Of a DNA stretch of 40,828 bases, positions 1 to 40,828 are shown in pieces. The stretch spans positions 1 to 40,828 of the IMG/VR virus record IMGVR_UViG_3300022723_000252. One strand, 5' to 3'. The stretch's first letter is position 1, and every line of letters starts with the position of its first letter. The DNA is from a virus. A program made the translations under genes and the position numbers. The notes below the pieces were generated by a model, which searched no databases, was not told where the DNA came from, and saw only the letters and a program-made list of their open reading frames with translations.

Positions 1-127
1 GACTGTCGTTAGACTGTCGTTCATGGCCGGCGATGTCGTTGACCGGGACGAGTTCAGCCGTGAGTGCGTGAGGATCGGGTTCAAAGCGTCCCAGGTTCTT
101 GCTTGCGTGCAGCAATAGCCGAAAAAA
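1..127. repeat. Terminal direct repeat, left copy (circular-assembly overlap)
   Basis: Bases 1-127 are identical to 40702-40828. The length of exactly 127 equals the largest k-mer commonly used by short-read assemblers, so I read this as the overlap left when a circular graph path is written linearly, not as a packaged terminal repeat. The repeat lies inside a coding sequence that reads on across it without a stop, which fits a circle. Unique length is therefore 40,701 bp. Confidence 0.9.
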
Positions 128-271
128 GATAGCCTGCTTTTCGCACGTAAAACGTTTTAAGACGGCATGTTCCATTAGATCTAAGTGGAGCTTGATCCAT
201 ACCGGCCAGCGATCGGAGTAATGCTGATATTTCTTCCAATCGCAGAAAGTGGCGGTCAAATTCACATGCAT
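1..271 (-). CDS. Replication-initiator-like protein, N-terminal part (gene continues at 40701 across the circular junction)
   Basis: This is the 5' end of the gene listed at 39794-40828. Read leftward from ATG at 271 (protein starts MHVNLTATFCDWKKY) the frame stays open to base 1 and continues at 40701 on the circle, giving 392 aa. The first ~45 residues hold a W-K-K-Y then WPVWIKLHLDL block, the pattern seen at the start of many phage replication proteins whose N-terminal domain is a helix-turn-helix-like DNA binder. Bases 1-127 are repeated at the other end, so they must be counted once. The start is supported by the frame and the conserved block; its ribosome-binding site is weak (GAG three bases before ATG, with a GGGAGG 17 bases away inside a terminator stem). 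Confidence 0.75.
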   Translation of the reverse strand, partial: MHVNLTATFCDWKKYQHYSDRWPVWIKLHLDLMEHAVLKRFTCEKQAIFFRLLLHASKNLGRFEPDPHALTAELVPVNDIAGHERQSNDS

Positions 272-281
272 TTCTCGATAC

Positions 282-330
282 AAAAAAGCCTCCCTGTAAC
301 AAGAATATCAAGCTTGATAACAGGGAGGCT
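282..330 (-). terminator. Intrinsic terminator or attenuator directly upstream of the initiator-like gene
   Basis: Reading leftward, AGCCTCCCTGT (330-320) and its perfect 11-bp complement (297-287) form a strong stem; the loop contains the palindrome ATCAAGCTTGAT, and six T follow (287-282). This is a textbook Rho-independent terminator. It lies between the Acb2-like gene (stop at 351) and the initiator start at 271, only 10 bases from the start codon. The 3' arm contains GGGAGG, a potential ribosome-binding sequence, so the hairpin could also mask translation. It may act as an attenuator setting the level of initiator. Confidence 0.85.
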
Positions 331-350: not shown

Positions 351-611
351 TCAAGAAGAACGTGGCTGCAAGGTCGCCTCATCCGGCATCCAGTAGCCAT
401 CCATGTGGCGAGCGATGGATGCGAAAGCCCACATCGCCACCTCCTCGAGCTTTTTGATTGCGATCGCCCGTTCCCTGGAAACGGGGCAATTGAGTTGGAT
501 GGTTTTGGCCAGCTGTGCGCATTCCTCTGCGAGCTGGTCATAGAACCCAATCTGAGCATCGGTCGGCCGATGATACTTGAAGTTCTTTTCGATGTCGGTG
601 ACTTTTTCCAT
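351..611 (-). CDS. acb2: Acb2-like cyclic-oligonucleotide sponge (anti-CBASS)
   Basis: An 86-aa protein with the features of the Acb2/Tad1 hairpin family (T4 Vs.4 type): an N-terminal F-K-Y-H-x-P segment near residues 10-14, an alpha-hairpin, then the conserved run CPVSRERAIAIKKLEE and MWAFASIARH in the second helix (about residues 44-70). Family members assemble into hexamers that bind cyclic di- and trinucleotides and so blunt CBASS effectors; some also bind Thoeris signals. Start chosen at ATG 611 because GAGGTGAAA precedes it; the upstream extension is not conserved-looking. It sits between recT and the initiator gene, so it would be expressed early, when such protection is needed. A C-terminal tail of about 16 residues after the hairpin is unusual. 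Function is inferred from sequence pattern. Confidence 0.8.
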   Translation of the reverse strand: MEKVTDIEKNFKYHRPTDAQIGFYDQLAEECAQLAKTIQLNCPVSRERAIAIKKLEEVAMWAFASIARHMDGYWMPDEATLQPRSS

Positions 612-732
612 TTTCACCTCTCCAGTTAAACAGGTCGATCCCTTGATCAACGTATACCCATCTTCCACGGTCTCCGGTGCCGAGCAGTTCGACCTCCTGG
701 TGACATCGATACCGCTGCCATCCCTCAGCCAT
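538..732 (-). CDS. Possible small protein overlapping the acb2-like gene
   Basis: Leftward frame of 64 aa from ATG 732, running 74 bases into the Acb2-like gene in another frame. The first ~45 residues (YRCHQEVELLGTGD, WVYVDQGIDLF) look like a natural small beta-rich phage protein, while the tail inside acb2 is basic and could be read-through. No clear ribosome-binding site is visible. The alternative is that 612-732 is untranslated leader of acb2. I do not recognise a function. Confidence 0.35.
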   Translation of the reverse strand: MAEGWQRYRCHQEVELLGTGDRGRWVYVDQGIDLFNWRGENGKSHRHRKELQVSSADRCSDWVL

Positions 733-757
733 TTCATGCAGGTGTGAAGTTGTAAGA

Positions 758-3391: not shown

Positions 3392-3757
3392 ATGTATTGC
3401 ACTGAAGCACGCAAGTGGGCCATCAAGGGCATGATCGGCATGGTCGTGGGCAAGACCCATAAGGTCGACGTCCTGCTGCACATCGGTGACTGCGAGGATT
3501 GTTCGAGGTTCATCGAGCAATCGAAAGGCTTGAAGCAGGATTGTTTCACCGAACCTGGGATGCCTGCTGCGCTCGGGCCTGAAGGACCGCGCCCAGTTGA
3601 CTCACCAGATTCACCCAATCCCGAGCCTCGGCCGCATCCAGATCCCCCTTCCGCACCCGCTCCGTCAACTCCGCCTCCGTTTGAGCGATCCCAAACAGCA
3701 CGGCCGCCGCTTCCTGCGGACGACCTTGAAGGAAGGTTAGGCCTTCCGGGCTTTTGA
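3392..3757 (+). CDS. Small rightward CxxC protein, 3' end antisense to the giant virion gene
   Basis: A 121-aa frame with an excellent ribosome-binding site (AGGAGG, five-base spacer). Residues 1-50 look like a real small protein: alternating charged and hydrophobic, with a C-E-D-C pair near residues 34-37 and single cysteines at 3 and 50. From about residue 52 the chain becomes Pro/Ser-rich, because it runs 212 bases antisense into the end of the 2729-aa gene (stop at 3546). Either the tail is genuinely translated, or the functional part is the N-terminal half. It is the only gene under the rightward early promoter, a position where phages often keep a regulator, but no DNA-binding motif is visible. 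Confidence 0.6.
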   Translation: MYCTEARKWAIKGMIGMVVGKTHKVDVLLHIGDCEDCSRFIEQSKGLKQDCFTEPGMPAALGPEGPRPVDSPDSPNPEPRPHPDPPSAPAPSTPPPFERSQTARPPLPADDLEGRLGLPGF

Positions 3758-6700
3758 GGATCCGGATCTGGGAGGACAGGTTAAGTTGGTTGAGCTGGCG
3801 TACGGTTGGGGACTGGAAGTTGGTCTCGATACGAGCCATCAGAAAGTTCTCGACGTCTCGCCCGGTGCGCCAGCCCATCTTGCGTGCGTTGTTACCCGCC
3901 CACGCCTCGAACTGGCGGTAGCGCTTGTGGTCTCCCGTGTTCAGGTACTCCTGGAACAGCCTGAACCCCTGATCGCGCAGGGTCTGGAGACGATCGGACT
4001 CGAGGCGCACCCTCCGGCCGAAATCCCAGACCTCATCGATCTGCGGCAGGGATCCCGGGAAGAGGAGGTCGACCAGCATCTCGGCGGCTCCGAACGTTTG
4101 GCGCTGACGGCCATCGAGGAAGCGAGCCAGCGGTTTCTCGGGAGGCAGCCCGGTGATCGGATCGTTCTTGGCGGGACCGATGTGGTCGATCAGACCGGCC
4201 GATTCTTGGGCGAGCTTTTGGACGGGCCCCTGGGCCACGGAGAAGACGTCTGCGGCTTGATCCTCCCGGTCTTGGGCCAAGTACCACTCGCCGATCTGCA
4301 TGAGCTCCAGGAGCATCCTGGGCATCCTGCCGGTGATCAGGGTGCGGCGACGCCGGGTGACCTCTTTGAAGGTCGACGGGTCTTTCTTCTCGACCCAGTC
4401 TCTCAGTGCCCCGAAGTAATCGACGAGGAGCTCGACGGCAGGTGAGGGCCCGATGCCGGCGGAAGGGATCCCAGGGATCACACGTCCTCGAAACGCCGCA
4501 GCGAGCGGCTCAGGCAGCTTGTCGGGAATCCCTGCCTCGAGCAGTCCGGTGTCGATCATGGAGCCGAAGAGCGGGATGTTCTGGACCCGAGTTCCCGTGA
4601 GGCTGGAGATCGAGACGGCCTTGCCGAGGAGGAACTCGGAGAGCTCCTCAGCGAAGTAGCTGGCGGCCGCAACGCCGAGCATGCCGGTGATGTAACTCTT
4701 GGCGAACTCGAAGCGCTTCGAAGGCTCGAGGTTGCGGATCGAGGCAAACGACTGCACGCCTTCCGAGATCGCTCGGTGAGTGAACGTCGTCAGCGTGGTC
4801 GCGAAGGAGAGCTTGCGGTTGCGAAGGAAGCGGGGTGAGTAGGCCCGGTCGTACTGGAACATGGTCTGAGCTTCGAGCTGGCGCGCATAACGCACGGCAT
4901 CTTGCACGACCATGCCGTTCTCGACCGCTTGCTGAAAGCCCGTGAGCCAGGTGGCCCCTCGGACAAACTTCTCGCTGGTATCGAAGAGCACGAACGACAG
5001 GTCTTTGAGGTTCCGGTCGCCTCGTGTCTCGAGGGTGCGTGCTTCGGCGCCCTCGGCCACGCCAGCCAGCTCTTCGGGCGACATCTTCTTCACCAGCCGC
5101 TGGAAGGCGGTGTCGAAAGCGGCGCCGTGTGCGCGCATCAGATCGAAGGCCTTGACCTTCGATCCATCGGGCAGAGCAATGGCTCGGTTCGTGAGCATTG
5201 CGTTGATGCCCTTAAGGCTGGCGGTGGGGCCCGCTCGAAAGACGGTGAAGAGCAGCTGGGTCAGGTTGGTCATCGCTGCTTGCGGTGACATGAGCCCCAG
5301 GAGCAGGTGGTACTGGGCACCCGAGATCGCCTCCGAGATCTTCTGGAACCGGGTGGCTTCTTCGAACGAGAAGATGTCCTTCATCCATCGCTCGAGCGCC
5401 TCGACCCGGTTGAGCTGTTGTGGAATCTTGGAGACGAGAAGACGGCTACCCGCTGAAAGCTGACCCAGTTTCTCGGCCGGCTGCCCGAACTCACGGATCC
5501 CGACCTTGCGGACGCCGAAGTCTTTCATGAGGCGCTCATAAGCGATCGTGACTTCGTTACCGACGGGCCTGCCGGCCGAGAGCTCGGTCGCGACGATGGT
5601 CCGGTCGTTGACGTTGTTCGCGATGACGAGGTGGGACTCATTCTCGACGAGGCCTTTCTTGGCCTGAGCCGGGTTGGGCTTATACAGCAGGTCGCCGTGT
5701 GACACATCGGTCACGTCGGCCATGGTGCGACCTTGCAGGAAGTTCCTCGCGCCTCCCAACGGACCATCATAGTTGGGGATGATGGCACTGCGCGCTTGTG
5801 AAGTAAACATCCAATGATACATCCTGGGGATGATCACATGATAGGCAGCGACGGCGGAGCGGATGTAGTGTTCGCCGTCCTTGACCTTGCGCCGGAAGGC
5901 TTGATCCGGCGTGGCCGACTTCAGGACATCGGACGGCTGCCAGACCCGGGACTTCCATCTCGCCGGGCTCATCTCCTTGGTCATCTCGATGACCTCGGGA
6001 CCGAAGACCTCGAGCGCCACATGCTTTGGGAGCGCCTTGAGCAGGCGTGGCATCCAGCCTTCGATCATGCCGAAGGGTTGAGTCTCGGCCAGCCCGATCT
6101 TTTTCGCGACCTGCTCCGAGATCTCACCGCGATCGAAGCGGGCTTGGAGCTCTCGGCCCAAATCTTGGCGCAGCTTCTCGTTGACGACCTTGAGCCGGAG
6201 GTAACGGCTCTCAAGGTTCTTGTCTCCGATCCGGCTGAGCCACTGGGAAGCCGTGAGCGTGTCCATCTCGCCCAAGGCATAAAGCACCCGGTCGACCAGA
6301 GATCCCGCCTTGATGCCTGCGAGCACCCCGCGTACAGGATGATAGAGCTCCTGCAAGAGGTTCTCCGTTCGGCGGTCTCTGAGCTTCCGGGCGCCGGTCA
6401 GTACGTCAAAGATCCGAGAGCCAAAGTTCTGAACGGGATCGAGAGCGCCGCCCGCACCCAAGTCATTCTTGAACCCGCCGCGAGTCACCTTCCCGGCGGC
6501 TGTCCAGTACTCTCTTTGGTTCTGGGCTCCCATCCAGAAGTGGCGAAAGATCGGTCGCTGAAAGATGCGCTTCTCGACCGCTGACAGCTTGGTCGCATCG
6601 AGCGTTTTCGAGTAGATGTCGACCATGTTGTCGAAGAACCCGGCATACAGCTTGAAGGCCGGCGAGAAGATCTTCTTCGCGATCTCGAAGAAGGACCGAT

Positions 6701-9700
6701 CCTTTTGTTGCCACGTGTTCACGCACCCGCAGCCGATGTCCTCGAAGGACTTGGGCAAGGTGCGCCGGCGAACGTCATAGCGCTGCTTCGTCTCGAGCTT
6801 CAGGTTTTCGAACTGGTGTCGGAACCATCCTTCAGAGATTTCAAAGACGTGGGCGCGTCCTTGCTCGAACTGGGCTCTTGCCCACTCGGCTCGTATGAGA
6901 CCCGGGTCCTCGATGCGAAAGCCCCAACCATCGGCATTGCGGATATCCCAAAACACCTTGGGACGTCCTTCCACCACAACGGTTGTTGGGACCAGCTTAA
7001 ATCCCTCGCCGGAAGCCGAGGCCAGAGCAAAGCTACCGACATCATCGAACAGTAAGCGGCGGCGGTCAGCTCCGAGTACACGCGTTCCGTCATGAGAGTC
7101 TGCCTCATGGAACAAAACGTCTCGTCGCTCACGGGCGCCCCGTTCGGAAAGGTTCTCGGAAAGGCGGACAGTTCTTCTCAGCAGCTCAGTGTTGACCTTG
7201 CCGAGTTGGTCGTTGATAGCTCGTGCTCGTTCGGCGACGAGTTCGCGGTACACCTCGACAACGTTGGTCCCCTCTTCCTCCAGGCGACCTCGTTGATTCT
7301 CGATCATCTCTTGCTGAGCCAGCAAGTACCTCAGATCCTTGAGCTGCCTCTCAAGGGGCGCGTGCGCCTCGAGCGAGCGATCGACGATCCTTGCATCCTC
7401 GACCGTGGGGAGCGGAATGCGAGGATCGATCTTGTTCGGGCCCGCTTCGTTGATGACGTCCCGCACAGCCTGATCGCTCAGACCCACGAGGTCATCGATT
7501 GGAGTGGCGTTGCTCTTGCGCAGTCGCTCGCCGGTCTCGAACGACTCCTCGATGGTCTCTCGGACTTTGCCCGTAAAGATGTCGAGGAACCGGAAGGCTC
7601 TTTCCTTGACCGCCCCATGCGCGGTCTCAGTCGAGAGGTCGATACCGAGCTGAGCTTGGTAGGTCTTGGCGATCTTCTTCGCTCGTGTCTCGAGGGGCTC
7701 GGCTCGCTCGCCTCCGGAAAGAGCCAAGGCTTGAGGGTCCCGAGCGAAGATGCCCCGCAAGCGCTCGACCTGCTGAGGCTGACGCAGATCGGCGGCACTC
7801 AGCTTGAGTCCAGCGGCCTCACCCACGCGCCGAAGCAAGTCGAGCTCAGAGACCGTTAACCGGCCGCCCTTGGCCAGAGCCGAGGCGACCTGTCCGAGCT
7901 CGGCCGACTCGAAACCGGCAAACGTTCCACGGCGATCCACAGGCTCGATGCGCCTCACGTGCGTGAAGAGCTCCCCGTCGATCTCGAAGCGCTGCGCCTT
8001 ACCCGAACGCTGAAACAACTCGATCTCACCCGCCTCGCGCAACGTCGACAGGTTCTCGAGGATGTTCCCCTCGGAAGTTTCTGAGCGCTCGATCAGTTTG
8101 CCGATCGTCTCGCCGTCTTCTTTAATCTCGCTCTTGGTACGAGCGAGCGTTTCGCGAGGCGCACCGGTCGGCTCGGGGAAGAGCGTCTCTTCGGCGACGC
8201 GCTCACGAGGCGGCGGCTCCGTCACCCGGATGAAGTTGGCCACGGCGGTCTTCGACCCGGGCACCAAGGCAACCTCGGACTCGCGCACGAGATCGGGGTT
8301 CATGCCCTCGACGAAATCAGCTCGAGCCAAAGACAGCTCGCCCGCCTGGTTGGCTTCGACCAGTTTCTGTTTGAACTGCTCGAGCTTCATACGGCTCTGC
8401 GGGTTGCGATTCTTGAAGACCTCGAAGGCTTCGGAGATGAACACCTTGTCCGAGCCGGATCGCCCTGTCTCGGAGACGTCCCCAAGCGCCTCCAGCACAT
8501 CCCGCGCAAAGGTGCGCACTTCCGGCTCCGCTTCCACACTCGGCTCGGCTTGCCGCTGGAGCTGAGCCTCTCTCACCTCGCGTGCCCCAACGCGATCCGC
8601 AACGAGACCTTCGATCCGATCGAGGCTTCGACCGGCCAGATCCCTGCCCGAGAGTTCGATCCCCATGTTGCGCCCGAAGAACTCGATGGCGATCGCATCC
8701 TTGCGACTCAAGGCTTCGGCCCCGTCTCGGGTCGCTGCTCGAGCCAGCTCCATCAGAAAGAGCCGGTCGGCCAGGGCACGTTCACGCGGGGGGATGAGAT
8801 CCCGTGAAGACTGCCCATGAGCCGACCGGCGCAAATCCGTCACCGGCATCGTGAAGGCGTTGATGGCGAGCTCACGTAACAGATGGCGAGCTCGGTCTCC
8901 AGCAGTGCCTTTCTGGGAGAAGGACTGGAGACGCCGGCGGATCTCAGGTGTGGGCGGGAGATGGTCGCGAAGTTGGGAGAGGACGGCGAGACCAAAATCG
9001 GAATCCACCTGGGAAGGTTGGCGGTTGATTGCTTCGACGACCAACCGTAAGGCTCTCGACTGCTCCGAGCTGAGGTCATCGAGGTTGCGAGGAGCTCGCC
9101 GTCCCATGAAGCCGTCCAGGATACGAAGTGCATCGCCCCGTGTCATGGGATTCTCCGGACCAAAAGCTGAAAGCTCGCGCTCGAACTCGAAGCTGTTCAT
9201 CCGCTGGCTCATCCAGAGCAACACCTTGTCGACCTGGCTCTCGCTCAAAGGCTCCCTCGCGGCCGGCTGTCGGCCATCGCTCTCACCGCTTGTTTGCTGG
9301 AACATCTCCATCACCGCCTCGGCATCGCTCATGTCTCGAGGCAACGTCTCGAGCTTGGCCAAGATCTGATTGCGGATATCGAGCTTGTCTTGGCGCAAGG
9401 AGGGCCTTGCCTTGGAGGGCTCCATCCGTTCGATCTTTTCGAGAAAGGGATCGATGAGGTTTTGCTTCTCAAGCCGAGGGACCATGACGTTGATCAGATA
9501 TTCGATTGAATCCTTGGCCGTCGAGGATCGCATCTTCGCGAGCGGCTTGAAGCTGGAACGCACCGCTAGCTCGACCTCGATGGAAGGTACCTCGATCCCC
9601 AGCTCATTCCCAAAGGCGCGAAAGGTCCGCCCCATGGCCACGAGCTCGCGCGTCCTTGGATCGGTGATGTCGGTGGACTTGACCTTGTCGTTGTCCAAGA

Positions 9701-11735
9701 CCCACCGCTGCACGGCATCGAGGCGCTCGAGATCGTTGAACTCCAACAGATCGATGTCTTTCCGATCGGCGCCCAATTGCTCGAGGATCTTCTCGGTGGC
9801 CGGAAACCGCTGCCCCTTGAGCTTGTCGGAGCGAGCTCGGGTCTGCTTGCGAAGCTCCGTGATACGCGCTCCCGTATCACCACTCACCCGTGCGTCTCGG
9901 TTCTGCACGGCGGTGCGGAGCGCCTCGAGAAGGAACGTCTCGAAGGACTCTGCATGGCGTCCCTGCTGGCGAGCCAGGTGGCGGCCGTACTCGGTGAATT
10001 CGGCGACTGACTTCTCGAACGGAGTCTCGCCTCGGAGCTGGTCGATGCGGATCGCTTTATCAAACGTGAACTGCATGGCCTGCTCGAGGTCGTTGAGGAT
10101 CAGCAGATCCGCTCGGTCGAAGTCGGTCTCTCGGATGCCGAGCCCTGAGGACTTGGCGAACCGCTTGATCGAATCGCCTAGGTTCTTGTCGACTCCCGAC
10201 TCGACCTCGAGGGCTCGCTGGAAGAGCATGAGCCGGAAGGTGCGATCCGTGAGCTCGACGTCCTTGGCCCTCGAGGCGACCGATTGCATGACCGCGTCGG
10301 TCAGCTCGCGCTCTTGTTTGTCGTACCCGCCCTTGAGGAGCTGGTCGATCTCGCGGAGATCCGAGCGCCTGCGACGCTCGGAGCCAAATGCCCCGCGCAT
10401 GTTCATCCCACCGAACACCGTGAGCATCGGCAGGATCTTGATCCCCATCTCTTTCCAGCGCCCCTGGATGAAGTCATCTTGGATCGCTGGATCCGCGAAC
10501 GCCCAGGGTGCCGTCTCGGCCACCGACTCGAGGAACTTGAAAGCCGCGAACCGACCGCCCGTTTCCTCGGCCCATCGACCCAGCGCTTTGTCGACCCCCT
10601 TGCGACCGAGCCCACCCAAGGCTCCGAGCCCGACCACGGTGACGCCCTCCAGCGCCCCCTGCTTGAACTTCTCGGCAAACTTGGTGCTGAGTCCCTCTTC
10701 GAGCCCTCGCACCCGTCCTTGGCCCATCAGGAAGCCCACCGTGAAATTGGCGCCCGCATGCCGGAGCCATTGGTTCACCTTCTGGGCACGCGTGAACTGA
10801 GTCGCCAGCGATGCCTGAGCGGTCTTCTCCAGACCGAAGAGCTTGTTGACCAGCGAAGGACTCTTGCCCCCACGCAGCGCACCCTTGAACGTCAACACGA
10901 TCCCCGTCAGGTCACCGATCCCCTTGGCGATCTGCACGCCCCCTGCCGATCGTTCGTCGACCCCGATCCTCTGGGATCCCAGGGCGGCGAGCGAGCGGAG
11001 TTCCTCGTCTTCGGGGGCGAAAGGATTGAGCGCTGTGGTGAAAGAAGCGATCGCGTCGTTGAACGTTCCATCGGGAATGTCCTGCCCGATGAAACTGGCC
11101 ACGAGATCGGCAAGGCCCTCACCGAAGTTGACGATCTGTTGCTGGGCTCCGATCAGAGGCGAGGTGATCCCTGCCAGGACAGGGTGCTCCTCCTCGAAGG
11201 CAAGCCCGGCCAGACGGGCCCTGGTTTGGTTGAACTGATCGCGCAGTGGGAGCGGAACCTCTTCGGCTCGATTAAACGTAATCGCGCTCAGAACATCAAG
11301 CCCGAGCTTGCGCAGAGAGCCTCGGTCCGCGACCCCCATGCCGCGCCCGATCGACATGATCTCATTCACGAGCTGCGCCTTCGGGCCCTTCGGTCTCTCG
11401 AGATCGGTGAAGGCTTGGAACTGGCGACCGACCAAGCGCCGGCGCGTGCGGAAGGCGAGGAACAGCAAGAGATCTTCGGCGTTGTCGATCGTCTGCGGGA
11501 TCAAGCCGGCTGCCCGTTGTTTCGCGTTGGGATCGGAGTCGATCTGCTGAAACGCGGTGGCCAGCCCCGCCTTGGCTTTCAGCAAATCGACACGGCGCCT
11601 CAGCCGAGGGAGCTGCTGGCGCCCTTCCGGAGACAGCTCGAGGGCTTGAGATAAATTCAAGGCTCTCTGATCGATCGCCTGGAAGATGCGACCCACCGGG
11701 TTGTTCAGGATAAGCGCACTCGGGTCATCGGCCAT
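3546..11735 (-). CDS. Giant internal virion/ejection protein (gp16-like position), 2729 aa
   Basis: The last gene of the late operon and a fifth of the genome. It starts at ATG 11735 inside TGATG of the previous stop. Position after gp13-, gp14- and gp15-like genes matches T7 gp16, the inner-core protein ejected to build the DNA channel, but it is about twice that length. Visible: an N-terminal helical region with a Gly-rich amphipathic stretch (VVGLGALGGLGRKG, near residue 370); long charged helical regions with many degenerate repeats (600-1500); a C-terminal part with the segment LLLGLMSPQAAMTNLTQLLF, a pattern shared by large ejection proteins of podoviruses, and a hydrophobic run GMLGVAAASYFAEELSEFLL. 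I found no lysozyme or transglycosylase signature (no clear E-x8-D/T or SLT motif), but one could be hidden. Assigned by length, position and general style, not by a recognised domain. Confidence 0.7.
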   Translation of the reverse strand: MADDPSALILNNPVGRIFQAIDQRALNLSQALELSPEGRQQLPRLRRRVDLLKAKAGLATAFQQIDSDPNAKQRAAGLIPQTIDNAEDLLLFLAFRTRRRLVGRQFQAFTDLERPKGPKAQLVNEIMSIGRGMGVADRGSLRKLGLDVLSAITFNRAEEVPLPLRDQFNQTRARLAGLAFEEEHPVLAGITSPLIGAQQQIVNFGEGLADLVASFIGQDIPDGTFNDAIASFTTALNPFAPEDEELRSLAALGSQRIGVDERSAGGVQIAKGIGDLTGIVLTFKGALRGGKSPSLVNKLFGLEKTAQASLATQFTRAQKVNQWLRHAGANFTVGFLMGQGRVRGLEEGLSTKFAEKFKQGALEGVTVVGLGALGGLGRKGVDKALGRWAEETGGRFAAFKFLESVAETAPWAFADPAIQDDFIQGRWKEMGIKILPMLTVFGGMNMRGAFGSERRRRSDLREIDQLLKGGYDKQERELTDAVMQSVASRAKDVELTDRTFRLMLFQRALEVESGVDKNLGDSIKRFAKSSGLGIRETDFDRADLLILNDLEQAMQFTFDKAIRIDQLRGETPFEKSVAEFTEYGRHLARQQGRHAESFETFLLEALRTAVQNRDARVSGDTGARITELRKQTRARSDKLKGQRFPATEKILEQLGADRKDIDLLEFNDLERLDAVQRWVLDNDKVKSTDITDPRTRELVAMGRTFRAFGNELGIEVPSIEVELAVRSSFKPLAKMRSSTAKDSIEYLINVMVPRLEKQNLIDPFLEKIERMEPSKARPSLRQDKLDIRNQILAKLETLPRDMSDAEAVMEMFQQTSGESDGRQPAAREPLSESQVDKVLLWMSQRMNSFEFERELSAFGPENPMTRGDALRILDGFMGRRAPRNLDDLSSEQSRALRLVVEAINRQPSQVDSDFGLAVLSQLRDHLPPTPEIRRRLQSFSQKGTAGDRARHLLRELAINAFTMPVTDLRRSAHGQSSRDLIPPRERALADRLFLMELARAATRDGAEALSRKDAIAIEFFGRNMGIELSGRDLAGRSLDRIEGLVADRVGAREVREAQLQRQAEPSVEAEPEVRTFARDVLEALGDVSETGRSGSDKVFISEAFEVFKNRNPQSRMKLEQFKQKLVEANQAGELSLARADFVEGMNPDLVRESEVALVPGSKTAVANFIRVTEPPPRERVAEETLFPEPTGAPRETLARTKSEIKEDGETIGKLIERSETSEGNILENLSTLREAGEIELFQRSGKAQRFEIDGELFTHVRRIEPVDRRGTFAGFESAELGQVASALAKGGRLTVSELDLLRRVGEAAGLKLSAADLRQPQQVERLRGIFARDPQALALSGGERAEPLETRAKKIAKTYQAQLGIDLSTETAHGAVKERAFRFLDIFTGKVRETIEESFETGERLRKSNATPIDDLVGLSDQAVRDVINEAGPNKIDPRIPLPTVEDARIVDRSLEAHAPLERQLKDLRYLLAQQEMIENQRGRLEEEGTNVVEVYRELVAERARAINDQLGKVNTELLRRTVRLSENLSERGARERRDVLFHEADSHDGTRVLGADRRRLLFDDVGSFALASASGEGFKLVPTTVVVEGRPKVFWDIRNADGWGFRIEDPGLIRAEWARAQFEQGRAHVFEISEGWFRHQFENLKLETKQRYDVRRRTLPKSFEDIGCGCVNTWQQKDRSFFEIAKKIFSPAFKLYAGFFDNMVDIYSKTLDATKLSAVEKRIFQRPIFRHFWMGAQNQREYWTAAGKVTRGGFKNDLGAGGALDPVQNFGSRIFDVLTGARKLRDRRTENLLQELYHPVRGVLAGIKAGSLVDRVLYALGEMDTLTASQWLSRIGDKNLESRYLRLKVVNEKLRQDLGRELQARFDRGEISEQVAKKIGLAETQPFGMIEGWMPRLLKALPKHVALEVFGPEVIEMTKEMSPARWKSRVWQPSDVLKSATPDQAFRRKVKDGEHYIRSAVAAYHVIIPRMYHWMFTSQARSAIIPNYDGPLGGARNFLQGRTMADVTDVSHGDLLYKPNPAQAKKGLVENESHLVIANNVNDRTIVATELSAGRPVGNEVTIAYERLMKDFGVRKVGIREFGQPAEKLGQLSAGSRLLVSKIPQQLNRVEALERWMKDIFSFEEATRFQKISEAISGAQYHLLLGLMSPQAAMTNLTQLLFTVFRAGPTASLKGINAMLTNRAIALPDGSKVKAFDLMRAHGAAFDTAFQRLVKKMSPEELAGVAEGAEARTLETRGDRNLKDLSFVLFDTSEKFVRGATWLTGFQQAVENGMVVQDAVRYARQLEAQTMFQYDRAYSPRFLRNRKLSFATTLTTFTHRAISEGVQSFASIRNLEPSKRFEFAKSYITGMLGVAAASYFAEELSEFLLGKAVSISSLTGTRVQNIPLFGSMIDTGLLEAGIPDKLPEPLAAAFRGRVIPGIPSAGIGPSPAVELLVDYFGALRDWVEKKDPSTFKEVTRRRRTLITGRMPRMLLELMQIGEWYLAQDREDQAADVFSVAQGPVQKLAQESAGLIDHIGPAKNDPITGLPPEKPLARFLDGRQRQTFGAAEMLVDLLFPGSLPQIDEVWDFGRRVRLESDRLQTLRDQGFRLFQEYLNTGDHKRYRQFEAWAGNNARKMGWRTGRDVENFLMARIETNFQSPTVRQLNQLNLSSQIRILKSPEGLTFLQGRPQEAAAVLFGIAQTEAELTERVRKGDLDAAEARDWVNLVSQLGAVLQARAQQASQVR

Positions 11736-32993: not shown

Positions 32994-33031
32994 CTCCAAG
33001 CTCGGGGCCACTCCAAGCTCGGGGCCACTCC
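32994..33031. repeat. 17-bp tandem repeat, 2.2 copies
   Basis: CTCCAAGCTCGGGGCCA is repeated at 32994-33010 and 33011-33027, then CTCC. It lies in the non-coding region between the groES-like gene and the small leftward operon. Confidence 0.85.
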
Positions 33032-36037: not shown

Positions 36038-36300
36038 CGATGCTCCTTTCGTCGCCCCGAAGGGCAAGTGGCAAGGTGGGAAGTGTAGATGCCTTCCTTG
36101 TCCGGCATGGCATCGACGGGCATGCGCTTATCGTTTTTGGTGATGGTCCAGACGATCGTGGCACCACACCGGCACATGAAGAAAGGATCTCTTCCTCGGT
36201 CCCTGCTGCGCTGGACTTGAAAGACCCCCTTCTCTTCGCCGGTCTGGTTGTCTTTGAACCAGACGTAGAGTTCCTGGGGAGGCGGTGGGAATCGGCTCAT
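36034..36300 (-). CDS. Small zinc-binding-like protein
   Basis: 88 aa from ATG 36300 (GGAA eight bases upstream; ATGA overlap). F-M-C-R-C-G-A-T-I-V-W-T, then K-R-M-P-V-D-A-M-P-D and S-H-L-A-T-C-P-S-G match a widespread phage domain (CxxCG...W...T..G..MPVD......SHFATCP). Metal binding by Cys/His is likely. Role unknown. Confidence 0.72.
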   Translation of the reverse strand: MSRFPPPPQELYVWFKDNQTGEEKGVFQVQRSRDRGRDPFFMCRCGATIVWTITKNDKRMPVDAMPDKEGIYTSHLATCPSGRRKEHR

Positions 36301-37052
36301 GATCGCTGTTCCTTTTCGTAGGAGTGAGCGAGCTCGCGCAGCTCGGCTTGTTGCTGCGGTGAAAGGAGAGTTCGGATGATCTCGTCGTCGGACATCGACA
36401 CCTTTTTGTCGGGCCAATCTTTCGAGAGGTCCTCGAAGTCGGCATCGATATCGTAGTCCGATTCCATGAAGGGATACTCATACCGAGAGCAGTCCTCCAG
36501 TGCCGAGTGCACGTTCGCCAGAGCCACGCACTCCGGAGTCCACAATTGGGGAAAATCGAATTGTCTCCATGCGGAACTCTCGTGGATATGAGGCACGATC
36601 AGGTCGGAGGGTAGTTCAGCCAGCCTTCGCAGTCGCGGTTGGGCTTCCACCAGTGGGATCATGGTGGCATTGAACGGGTAAAACTGAGCTTGGCTCCCGT
36701 TCTGCCCTGGGGCGAAACTGCGGGACATGGGGGGACGTTCAAACTTCGTCTTGATCAGAAATCGGAGGAACTGGGCCAGATCCCACGCTTCGACATGCAA
36801 TTGTCCATGGCGAGATCGGATCGCATGACGACTCGGCTCCCGACACCAGAACCACCACCAACTGACGAGTCTCTCGTAGGGATTGCGATGAATGCCGATC
36901 ACCGTTGGGTTCGTCATCGAGCTGGGTATTCGGTTGTCATGGAACGCCCCATGACTCCGACCCCCAAGCCGTGAGAACAGTCGATGAAAAGAGCGGCATC
37001 CCGTTTTTGGGGCTCCCAGGTAAACCCAGTTTTGTTTCGCATGAATGATCAT
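36297..37052 (-). CDS. Sulfotransferase family protein
   Basis: 251 aa from ATG 37052 (ATGA overlap with the glycosyltransferase stop). It would move sulfate from PAPS to a sugar hydroxyl. The 5'-phosphosulfate loop is Y-L-G-A-P-K-T-G-C-R-S-F (residues ~11-22), and the 3'-phosphate site is G-I-H-R-N-P-Y-E-R-L-V-S-W-W-W-F (near residues 52-67). Downstream FYPFNATMIPLVEAQPRLRR and a Trp-rich segment fill the usual acceptor region. Few phages carry a sulfotransferase; beside two glycosyltransferases and a methyltransferase it probably decorates a surface or virion glycan. Catalytic His not identified with certainty. Confidence 0.78.
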   Translation of the reverse strand: MIIHAKQNWVYLGAPKTGCRSFHRLFSRLGGRSHGAFHDNRIPSSMTNPTVIGIHRNPYERLVSWWWFWCREPSRHAIRSRHGQLHVEAWDLAQFLRFLIKTKFERPPMSRSFAPGQNGSQAQFYPFNATMIPLVEAQPRLRRLAELPSDLIVPHIHESSAWRQFDFPQLWTPECVALANVHSALEDCSRYEYPFMESDYDIDADFEDLSKDWPDKKVSMSDDEIIRTLLSPQQQAELRELAHSYEKEQRS

Positions 37053-37675
37053 GCTTCTTTTCCTTTCCATTTCTCGACCCAGAGTTTTTGATTGTTTTGA
37101 TTGAGGCGGCGTCGCGGCCACCCCTGTTTTTCAAGTCTTGAAGACGACGAGCCTTGATGGTGGATGAGATCCGACGGCGTGATGTGGAACTGACCACCGG
37201 CCAGGAAGTGGCGGTAGAAAAAGTCGGTGTCCTCGTAGTAGGCGGGGGTGAACCGCTCATCGAAGGGGCCCAGCTTCTCGAAGCGCTCCCGGGTGAGCGA
37301 GAAGCAATACCCTTTCGGGATGCGATCGAAGTCTTGGGGCCACGCTTGGCCGAAGAGCTGGAGGAAGGCGGGCTCTTGGCGTGTAGGTCGGGAGGCGTCC
37401 GCGCAGATCTCATCGTCGGCGGGATGGAGCAACTGGTCATGGAGATGACCCAAGAGTTCGACGTCGTCGTTGAGGAAGACAAGGACGGACGTCTTGGAGG
37501 CCCGGACTCCCTCGTTCCACTTCGAGGCGATCGATGGGTCGCCGTCGATCACGATCCAATGCGCCTCGGGATGGAAGCCGGTGAGCAGCCTCACGCACCG
37601 GGCTGCGAGCTCGGGAAAGACGGACGGGATGATCACGTCGAAAGGATCGGCTTGGGTCTTGATGATCTGGCTCAC
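37049..37675 (-). CDS. Family 2 glycosyltransferase
   Basis: 208 aa from GTG 37675 (GTGA overlap, GGAG six bases upstream; ATG 37687 is possible but lacks a site). GT-A fold marks: F-D-V-I-I-P-S-V strand, V-F-L-N-D-D-V-E metal-binding DxD, and the acceptor motif F-D-E-R-F-T-P-A-Y-Y-E-D-T-D-F-F-Y-R with D-L-I-H-H-Q-G-S-S-S, typical of rhamnosyl/galactosyl-type GT2 enzymes. It transfers a sugar from a nucleotide donor. Short for the family (usually 250-330 aa), but both core motifs are present. Confidence 0.82.
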   Translation of the reverse strand: MSQIIKTQADPFDVIIPSVFPELAARCVRLLTGFHPEAHWIVIDGDPSIASKWNEGVRASKTSVLVFLNDDVELLGHLHDQLLHPADDEICADASRPTRQEPAFLQLFGQAWPQDFDRIPKGYCFSLTRERFEKLGPFDERFTPAYYEDTDFFYRHFLAGGQFHITPSDLIHHQGSSSSRLEKQGWPRRRLNQNNQKLWVEKWKGKEA

Positions 37676-39392: not shown

Positions 39393-39797
39393 TCATCGTT
39401 TCTTCCCTCTCGTTCTGCGTGGTGGCCGCCACAGGCCGCCTGTCACGAGAGACGCAGGGACCTGGCGCATCGTCACGGACTCGGACTGCTGCAACTTGTG
39501 CCGCAGGAGTTTCCATTTGAGCTGGAACGCCTGAGTTCTGACACCTTTCACGTCCTCGATGACGTACTGCAACAGTTCGTGATCGAAGTAGACGAAGTCG
39601 GCGATGTACGTAACCGGGCGCACCCAAACCCCTTCGGACCAGAACCCATCGAGCAAGGTGTATCTCACCTGGGTCTGGACGTCGCGGACCTTGCCGGCGC
39701 GCTCGAGGAGTTTGAGCTGCTGGTAGCGGAGGGCCTCGGCCTTGGAGTCGAACTGGATTCCGTCGACCTCGGTGCACTTGTTGCCGTACTTGCTCAT
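39393..39797 (-). CDS. DUF1064-family nuclease-like protein
   Basis: 134 aa (ATGA overlap). S-K-Y-G-N-K at the start, F-D-S-K-A-E-A-L-R-Y, Y-I-A-D-F-V-Y and I-E-D-V-K-G form the DUF1064 signature, a PD-(D/E)XK-like fold (Asp of ADF; E-x-V-K) suspected to be a small phage resolvase or endonuclease. Beside the initiator and the RecT/exonuclease operon a role in recombination or branch cutting is likely. GGGAG eight bases upstream. Confidence 0.8.
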   Translation of the reverse strand: MSKYGNKCTEVDGIQFDSKAEALRYQQLKLLERAGKVRDVQTQVRYTLLDGFWSEGVWVRPVTYIADFVYFDHELLQYVIEDVKGVRTQAFQLKWKLLRHKLQQSESVTMRQVPASLVTGGLWRPPRRTRGKKR

Positions 39798-40828
39798 GAG
39801 GATCTCCCGGTGCGGGCCAGGTAGCGCTCGAGCGGCTCGCCATCCTGGATGCCGGGGTACTTGCTGGCTCGCTCGTCACGCAAGCGGTTGACGTAGGCGA
39901 GGACGTCCTCGCCGTCTCGGATGCCGGGGTACTTGTCCTGGCGGGTCGGCTCCCTTGCTGGCTCGAGGATCTCGCCCCTGGGATCGCGCTTGAGAGGCTT
40001 GTGCTCCTCGTTCTTGCGCTTGAGGAGCTTGCGCAGCCACGGGAGGTAGTCCCGCACTTGCTTGGGCTCGTGGCCGTCGACCTCGATCCACACCCGGCGG
40101 CCGTACTTCGAGCTGTTGATCCGAGAGGCGCCCTGAGAGCGGCACCACGCCTCGATGTCCTGGACCTCCTCGAACACGTCGATGAACGTGAAGTCGACCT
40201 TGAGCCGTTCGTTCTCGAGGTCCGGGATGAGGAACCGATCGCCGGTCCAGGTGGTCGGCCACGACCGAGGGGCTCCGGCTTTGGTCTTGGCTTGTGCTTC
40301 GGTCTGGGCACTCGGTGCCTGACTCTCGGGCTCCGGCTTCTTCGGGGCGACAGCCTGGCTCGAGGACTTCGAGGCCGAAGGCTTGCCCTTCGGTGAACTC
40401 GGCGCAGCCGAGCGCTTCTTCTTGGGGGCCTTCGACCGCTTGCCGGGGGAAGGAGTTAGTTGGTTCTTTCTCCTACCAAGAACCTTCTTTTTCTCTCTCT
40501 CTGTTCTCTGTTCTCTTAGGGCTAGCAGGTCTGCTATTTCCACGACCTCTCCGACTTCCGGTGGATCCCATTCTCTTTCGATAGGTCGACCGGAAGGCCA
40601 TTGATCACCTAGGTTTACGAAACCGTGGCAATCAAGCTCTCGAAGAAAGTCGCGCATCCATCTCGTCCAAGCAGCGAACGACCTTCGTTCCACCTTCGTT
40701 CGACTGTCGTTAGACTGTCGTTCATGGCCGGCGATGTCGTTGACCGGGACGAGTTCAGCCGTGAGTGCGTGAGGATCGGGTTCAAAGCGTCCCAGGTTCT
40801 TGCTTGCGTGCAGCAATAGCCGAAAAAA
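39794..40828 (-). CDS. Replication-initiator-like protein, main part (starts at base 271 across the junction)
   Basis: The gene is 392 aa in all: ATG at 271 leftward to base 1, then 40701 down to 39794. Domains: N-terminal helical domain (WPVWIKLHLDL, EKQAIFFRLLLHASKN, F-E-P-D-P-H-A-L-T-A-E-L) ending L-R-E-L-D-C-H-G-F-V-N-L, the typical fold of phage replication organisers; a Lys/Pro/Ser-rich linker (~residues 165-230); a beta-alpha domain (DFTFIDVFEEVQDIEAW, RRVWIEVDGHEPKQVRDYL); and a C-terminal tail with two K-Y-P-G-I-(R/Q)-D-G-E repeats. A 44-bp iteron array lies inside its N-terminal coding sequence. A window-only view would start it wrongly at TTG 40816. Confidence 0.72.
   Translation of the reverse strand, partial: FFRLLLHASKNLGRFEPDPHALTAELVPVNDIAGHERQSNDSRTKVERRSFAAWTRWMRDFLRELDCHGFVNLGDQWPSGRPIEREWDPPEVGEVVEIADLLALREQRTEREKKKVLGRRKNQLTPSPGKRSKAPKKKRSAAPSSPKGKPSASKSSSQAVAPKKPEPESQAPSAQTEAQAKTKAGAPRSWPTTWTGDRFLIPDLENERLKVDFTFIDVFEEVQDIEAWCRSQGASRINSSKYGRRVWIEVDGHEPKQVRDYLPWLRKLLKRKNEEHKPLKRDPRGEILEPAREPTRQDKYPGIRDGEDVLAYVNRLRDERASKYPGIQDGEPLERYLARTGRSS
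40462..40519. other. Pyrimidine-rich tract beside the iterons
   Basis: The top strand from 40462 to 40519 is nearly all pyrimidine (TTCTTTTTCTCTCTCTCTG and similar), and its left part contains the inverted repeat GGTTCTT/AAGAACC (40462-40468, 40478-40484). A strand-asymmetric purine/pyrimidine tract next to iterons is a feature of lambda ori and could be the place where strands open. Confidence 0.55.
40679..40722. repeat. Four 11-bp iterons inside the initiator-like gene (candidate replication origin)
   Basis: Four head-to-tail units of 11 bp, each ending TCGTT: CGACCTTCGTT (40679-40689), CCACCTTCGTT (40690), CGACTGTCGTT (40701), AGACTGTCGTT (40712-40722). They fall in the initiator coding region (encoding E-R-Q-S-N-D-S-R-T-K-V-E-R-R) near the assembly junction. 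Spacing of one helical turn puts all sites on the same face. Initiator genes carrying their own iterons are known from lambda O and related phages. Confidence 0.7.
40702..40828. repeat. Terminal direct repeat, right copy (circular-assembly overlap)
   Basis: Identical to bases 1-127. It begins within the iteron array, 23 bases after its start, a repeat that would favour a break there during assembly. See the left copy for interpretation. Confidence 0.9.

Follow-up and report, generated by a model that had tools for sequence, protein, structure and literature searches.

A putative replication origin with 11-bp repeats inside the winged-helix initiator gene of a circular phage genome

The stretch of DNA analyzed in the present study (hereafter, the window) is a virus record of 40,828 nt. 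Its terminal 127 bases are the same at both ends, which gives a circle of 40,701 bp; this 127-base overlap resembles the word size of an assembler and does not look like a biological repeat. An initiator-like gene had been predicted to span the circular junction, and the minus-strand frame joined across it (1–271 plus 39794–40701) does yield a product of 392 aa if translation starts with the ATG at 271. The TTG at 283 is preceded by GGGAGG at a distance of five bases and is as good a start as this ATG. An inverted repeat in the 272–330 region overlaps the GGGAGG ribosome-binding site of the TTG start. It is possibly a leader terminator or a hairpin that masks GGGAGG, and translation of the initiator or read-through may be regulated there. 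The loop of this inverted repeat exceeds the length that the consensus terminator scan allows, and the scan therefore did not report it. The features of the locus are listed in Table 1.

Table 1. Features at the initiator locus of the window
Feature	Position	Strand	Remarks
Initiator gene, body	39794..40701	(-)	Stop-free frame up to the circular junction; stop at 39794; continues to 40828 within the duplicated end
Initiator gene, start	1..271	(-)	ATG at 271; residues 8–74 match the winged-helix initiator family
Inverted repeat and TTTTTT	287..330	(-)	11-bp arms AGCCTCCCTGT/ACAGGGAGGCT, 22-nt loop; just upstream of the initiator start
Four 11-bp units, proposed initiator binding sites	40679..40722	(-)	Coding strand (G/T)AACGA(CA/AG)GT(C/G)
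Purine-rich tract, proposed unwinding element	40464..40517	(-)	Purines prevail on the coding strand and pyrimidines on +; ~160 bp from the array, on its downstream side
Single TGCTAGCC	40520..40527	(-)	Directly before the purine tract, at the position of the last TGCTAGCA-type unit of relatives

The gene next to the initiator encodes a DUF1064/Holliday-junction-resolvase-like protein, and RecT and a YqaJ-type exonuclease are encoded nearby. Neither a helicase nor a loader, including the P type, was recognized among the neighboring proteins searched with Pfam and PHROGs, and no second initiator candidate was recognized among the window genes searched.

The original prediction left the initiator family unnamed and suggested a remote-homology or structure search. 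A profile of 46 relatives, from which the window was left out, matched the window protein over residues 8–74 (56 bits, i-E 5.5e-16), and the PHROGs search linked the protein to phrog_26426 ‘replication protein’ (E 0.0026). The tblastn matches to isolated phages, among them gp04 of Iodobacter phage PhiPLPE, ‘replication protein O’ of Cylindrospermopsis phage Cr-LKS3, and ‘replication protein’ of PBR31, were weak and all ran through the motif WxxxQHxxxRxPxWIKLH. Family members carry replication-protein annotations. Two relatives matched phrog_26426 at 3e-32 and 8e-15. In their C-terminal parts, one of them matched ‘replication initiation O-like’ and the other ‘primosomal’ and ‘replication initiation’ families. 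The window protein can thus be named, as far as sequence comparison indicates, a putative winged-helix replication protein of the phrog_26426 type. Pfam gave no family for it up to E 10, no O-like PHROG was found up to E 1, and its C-terminal half matched no known O-like domain in Pfam or PHROGs.

The fold predicted for one relative, L092, consists of a winged helix, a disordered linker at approximately residues 95–130, and C-terminal helices. This linker is the part encoded by the array and the tract. Foldseek matched L092 to the viral proteins PhiPLPE gp04 (7e-9), Lactobacillus phage DNA replication proteins, Lin1244, a RepA-like initiator, and DUF1376. Searches of the PDB gave no match by sequence and nothing significant by fold. 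The fragment of the window protein, folded alone, gave a low-confidence prediction (pLDDT 50), and alignments of window fragments with family fragments were rejected because they put helices in the wrong places. Residue 74, where the family profile match ends, lies immediately ahead of the array; therefore, the recognition helix is not clearly placed. The array is followed by the stretch SFAAWTRWMRDFLRELDCHGFVNL, which may correspond to the final helix of the winged helix in a displaced position.

Four 11-bp units occur exactly where they had been predicted: CGACCTTCGTT, CCACCTTCGTT, CGACTGTCGTT, and AGACTGTCGTT, which read GAACGACAGTC TAACGACAGTC GAACGAAGGTG GAACGAAGGTC on the coding strand. 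Units 3 and 4 recur as bases 1–22 because of the end overlap. The identity at lag 11 is 28/33, a score that no other place in the window attains for lags of 8–25 and that was reached in none of 2,000 synonymous-codon shuffles and none of 2,000 codon-order shuffles. Since 11 is not divisible by 3, the units lie in different codon phases, and a repeated peptide therefore cannot account for the array. Tandem Repeats Finder scored the array at only 50, and one other array of the window at 76. The top-scoring tandem repeat of the window is a 17-bp unit, CTCCAAGCTCGGGGCCA, present in 2.2 exact copies at 32994–33031.

The purine tract is the second strongest Y/R tract of the window. The predicted 58-base pyrimidine tract is real; however, it is interrupted, the 58 bases at 40459–40516 being 81% pyrimidine. 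In terms of 60-bp stability (z = 3.7), the tract belongs to approximately the top 0.02% of the circle and is among its four least stable 60-bp stretches. It codes for a charged linker and is the counterpart of the ETERETE-coding tract of relatives. The TGCTAGCC directly before it is possibly a weak remnant of the relatives’ unit. As proof of an ancestral site it was rejected, because a GCTAGC before the tract is expected in ~5% of protein-preserving shuffles. No second GCTAGC or GATATC unit was present in the window initiator gene, whereas most family genes have at least three. GC skew was uninformative as an origin marker and showed no clear turn in the region of the initiator gene.

In the genes of relatives, TGATATCA-NNN or TGCTAGCA-NNN units stand three to four in a row and are followed directly by a purine tract of the CAGAGACAGAG type, which codes for an ETETE linker. 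These 11-bp repeats are palindromic. Among 46 representatives, the lag-11 identity upstream of the tract exceeded that of synonymous shuffles (z = 10.9, a conservative value because some tract anchors were misplaced). At least three units at a spacing of 11 occurred in 58 of 77 non-redundant family genes (34 with TGATATCA and 24 with TGCTAGCA), and only 0–4 of the 77 had such units at the control spacings of 9, 10, and 12–14. The repeat type tracks the protein subfamily (34:2 versus 0:36; Fisher p 3e-18, which is too small because of shared ancestry among the genes), a pairing that would be expected if each protein reads its own repeats. In several cases, the genes downstream of the relatives, and of genes with the repeat class of the window, encode a DnaC, P-like, or other loader, a DnaB helicase, or a primase.

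The array of the window departs from this pattern. Its units are of a third type, AACGANNGTNN, and AACGA-type units were found in only one of the 77 family genes, that of the window. The array lies at about the same distance from the gene start as the arrays of relatives; its distance from the purine tract is ~160 bp versus a few bp in relatives. No direct relatives of the initiator, RecT, or portal of the window, and no window-specific DNA motif for RWPxWIKLH, were found in viral contigs. Among isolated phages, the terminase had no relatives and the portal had only weak matches, to cyanophages of the PP/Pf-WMP3 type. No close relative of the window phage was found.

The AACGA type itself is widespread. 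A pattern of three AACGANNGTNN units was found in 90 other viral contigs, with well under ten expected by our estimate from base composition. The consensus of these arrays is AACGACCGTTN, and most of them are located near residues 110–160 of genes of 220–300 aa. The AGKxSA-type motif of DUF1376-like proteins was present in 62 of the 90 contigs, and of eight representatives run against Pfam, five had DUF1376 or Lin1244_N, with four of these five scoring above the curated cut-off. The arrays are followed by short-repeat, strand-asymmetric tracts with a period 5–8 identity of 0.54 versus 0.34 in control stretches and a GC content of 0.38 versus 0.48. A control spacing of 12 bp retrieved 28 contigs, mostly with tetrapeptide repeats in other genes and only three with the initiator motif, and thus supports the 11-bp result and does not weaken it. 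Isolated phages with AACGA-type arrays include Moraxella phage Mcat18, Bordetella phage vB_BaM-IFTN2, and Pseudomonas phage UFJF_PfDIW6, in which the array is AACGACCGTT and a DnaC gene comes next. The ydaU gene of E. coli Rac has no AACGA-type array. In the window protein, Pfam matched neither DUF1376 nor Lin1244_N; PF07120 was not found in the window record in a search that matched no control genome either. The DUF1376-type genes of Thalassomonas BA3 (L276) and Vibrio vB_VpaS_PGA (L278) were without AACGA arrays and had 14-bp-period repeats around AACCCAGTSGGTT, which may represent one more class of repeats that differs in its spacing.

For lambda, it is established that the origin consists of in-gene iterons together with a tract that opens easily (PMC7466680). 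As in lambda O/ori-lambda and its Shiga-phage relatives, the putative iterons and the proposed opening tract of the window stand in the gene between the presumed DNA-binding N-terminus and the C-terminal part, and lambda also has four units (PMC7466680). In contrast to lambda, where array and tract are adjacent, they are ~160 bp apart in the window, and the window units are spaced at 11 bp. The term ‘lambda-like’ holds for the layout, namely an in-gene array with a purine tract in the same gene. It does not hold for membership, because no Phage_rep_O domain, O-like C-terminus, or P-type loader was recognized. The phrog_26426-type proteins (PhiPLPE gp04, Cr-LKS3, and PBR31) share the N-terminal winged-helix sequence, the linker purine tract, and 11-bp in-gene repeats. 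However, their TGATATCA/TGCTAGCA units are directly beside the tract, whereas the AACGA-type units of the window are away from it, and a helicase, loader, or primase gene is often next to theirs in place of the resolvase-like gene. The DUF1376 (YdaU-like)/Lin1244_N primosomal proteins with AACGACCGTTN arrays have in common with the window the 11-bp type, its orientation to a downstream asymmetric tract, and the location in an initiator-like gene. They differ in their N-terminal domain family, in an array that adjoins the tract, and in units that are nearly palindromic (AACGNNCGTT), whereas those of the window are palindromic only in the left half. In the RepA_N plasmid pSK41, the N-terminal domain binds four boxes central in its own gene, and the protein can do without the linker that the origin encodes (PMC5703833). 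RepA_N is a family of Gram-positive plasmids with its own Pfam domain, which is unmatched in the window protein.

The initiator-like gene of the window probably encodes a winged-helix phage replication initiator, with the phage origin lying within the gene in a lambda-like layout. The predicted origin is favored by an initiator-like gene, an origin-type array, a purine tract in the same gene, and a plan that recurs in relatives; the position of the array ~160 bp from the tract, instead of adjoining it, counts against it, as do the end of the profile match ahead of the array, the C-terminal half that matches no O-like domain, and a GC skew with no clear turn. From the array, the tract, the family, the winged helix predicted for the relative, and the in-gene layout in relatives, we infer origin activity at the window array, with binding, opening, and helicase loading as its steps. 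The N-terminal domain of the initiator would bind the four units, one per helical turn, and since 11 bp is approximately one turn, bound units would lie on one face of the helix. The complex would strain and open the easily melted, purine-rich tract that lies further along the gene. As with lambda O, the host DnaB helicase may then be loaded onto the opened strand; we propose the host’s own loader for this step because no helicase or loader was recognized among the window genes examined. The loader, helicase, and primase genes found beside relatives agree with this mechanism.

Other readings of the locus need to be considered. Replication may start at the purine tract with the single TGCTAGCC and weak sites, and the AACGA array may be a separate element, such as an operator for the initiator or a regulator. 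The TGCTAGCC lies exactly at the position of the last unit of relatives, and the AACGA array is displaced and has units of a kind that otherwise accompanies other initiator families. However, the shuffles yield one GCTAGC before the tract by chance at the frequency given above, and the second and third units that most family genes have are lacking; we consider this reading unlikely. It is less probable still that a different phage protein or a factor of the host occupies the array and that replication begins at another place. In favor of this reading, repeats of this type usually occur together with DUF1376 or Lin1244 proteins, which were not found in the window. However, many initiator genes, belonging to several families, combine an in-gene array with an asymmetric tract downstream of it, and the genes searched contain no recognizable second initiator candidate.

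A functionless tandem repeat, arisen by chance or slippage in a coding region, would agree with the moderate Tandem Repeats Finder score. We regard it as very improbable, given that none of the 2,000 shuffles equaled the array, that the 11-bp period breaks the codon phase, and that the repeat type occurs in 90 other viral contigs versus 28 at the 12-bp control spacing, three of which have the initiator motif.

Origins within genes are already known. We found no description of these 11-bp in-gene repeats in the open-access literature, neither of an 11-bp, one-turn repeat design common to several phage initiator families nor of a member with a foreign-type array set apart from its tract. We tentatively speculate, with more doubt than confidence, that several winged-helix initiator families share one design, in which in-gene palindromic units 11 bp apart are followed by an asymmetric short-repeat tract and only a few interchangeable repeat types are used. 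The window protein would have taken the type of another family and moved the array off the tract, and repeats and initiators would be exchangeable in evolution.

To our knowledge, the replication origins of most environmental phages are unknown. A signature of 11-bp palindromic in-gene units followed by an asymmetric tract would give origins from sequence in many uncultured phages. The natural pairs of protein and repeat may assist in working out how winged-helix initiators choose their sites. With its array and tract separated, the window is a test case that would reveal whether adjacency is required.

Other genes of the window were also noted. The gene upstream of the initiator (351–737, minus strand) encodes a protein with the Acb2/Tad1 hairpin domain (PF24729, E 5e-16), which is likely a sponge against CBASS/Thoeris-type signaling. 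A sulfotransferase-like gene (PF03567, E 3e-5) lies at 36297–37121 on the minus strand, with possible sugar or methyl transferase genes near it at 35–39 kb. A single minus-strand frame of 2,729 aa (3546–11735) occupies approximately one fifth of the genome.
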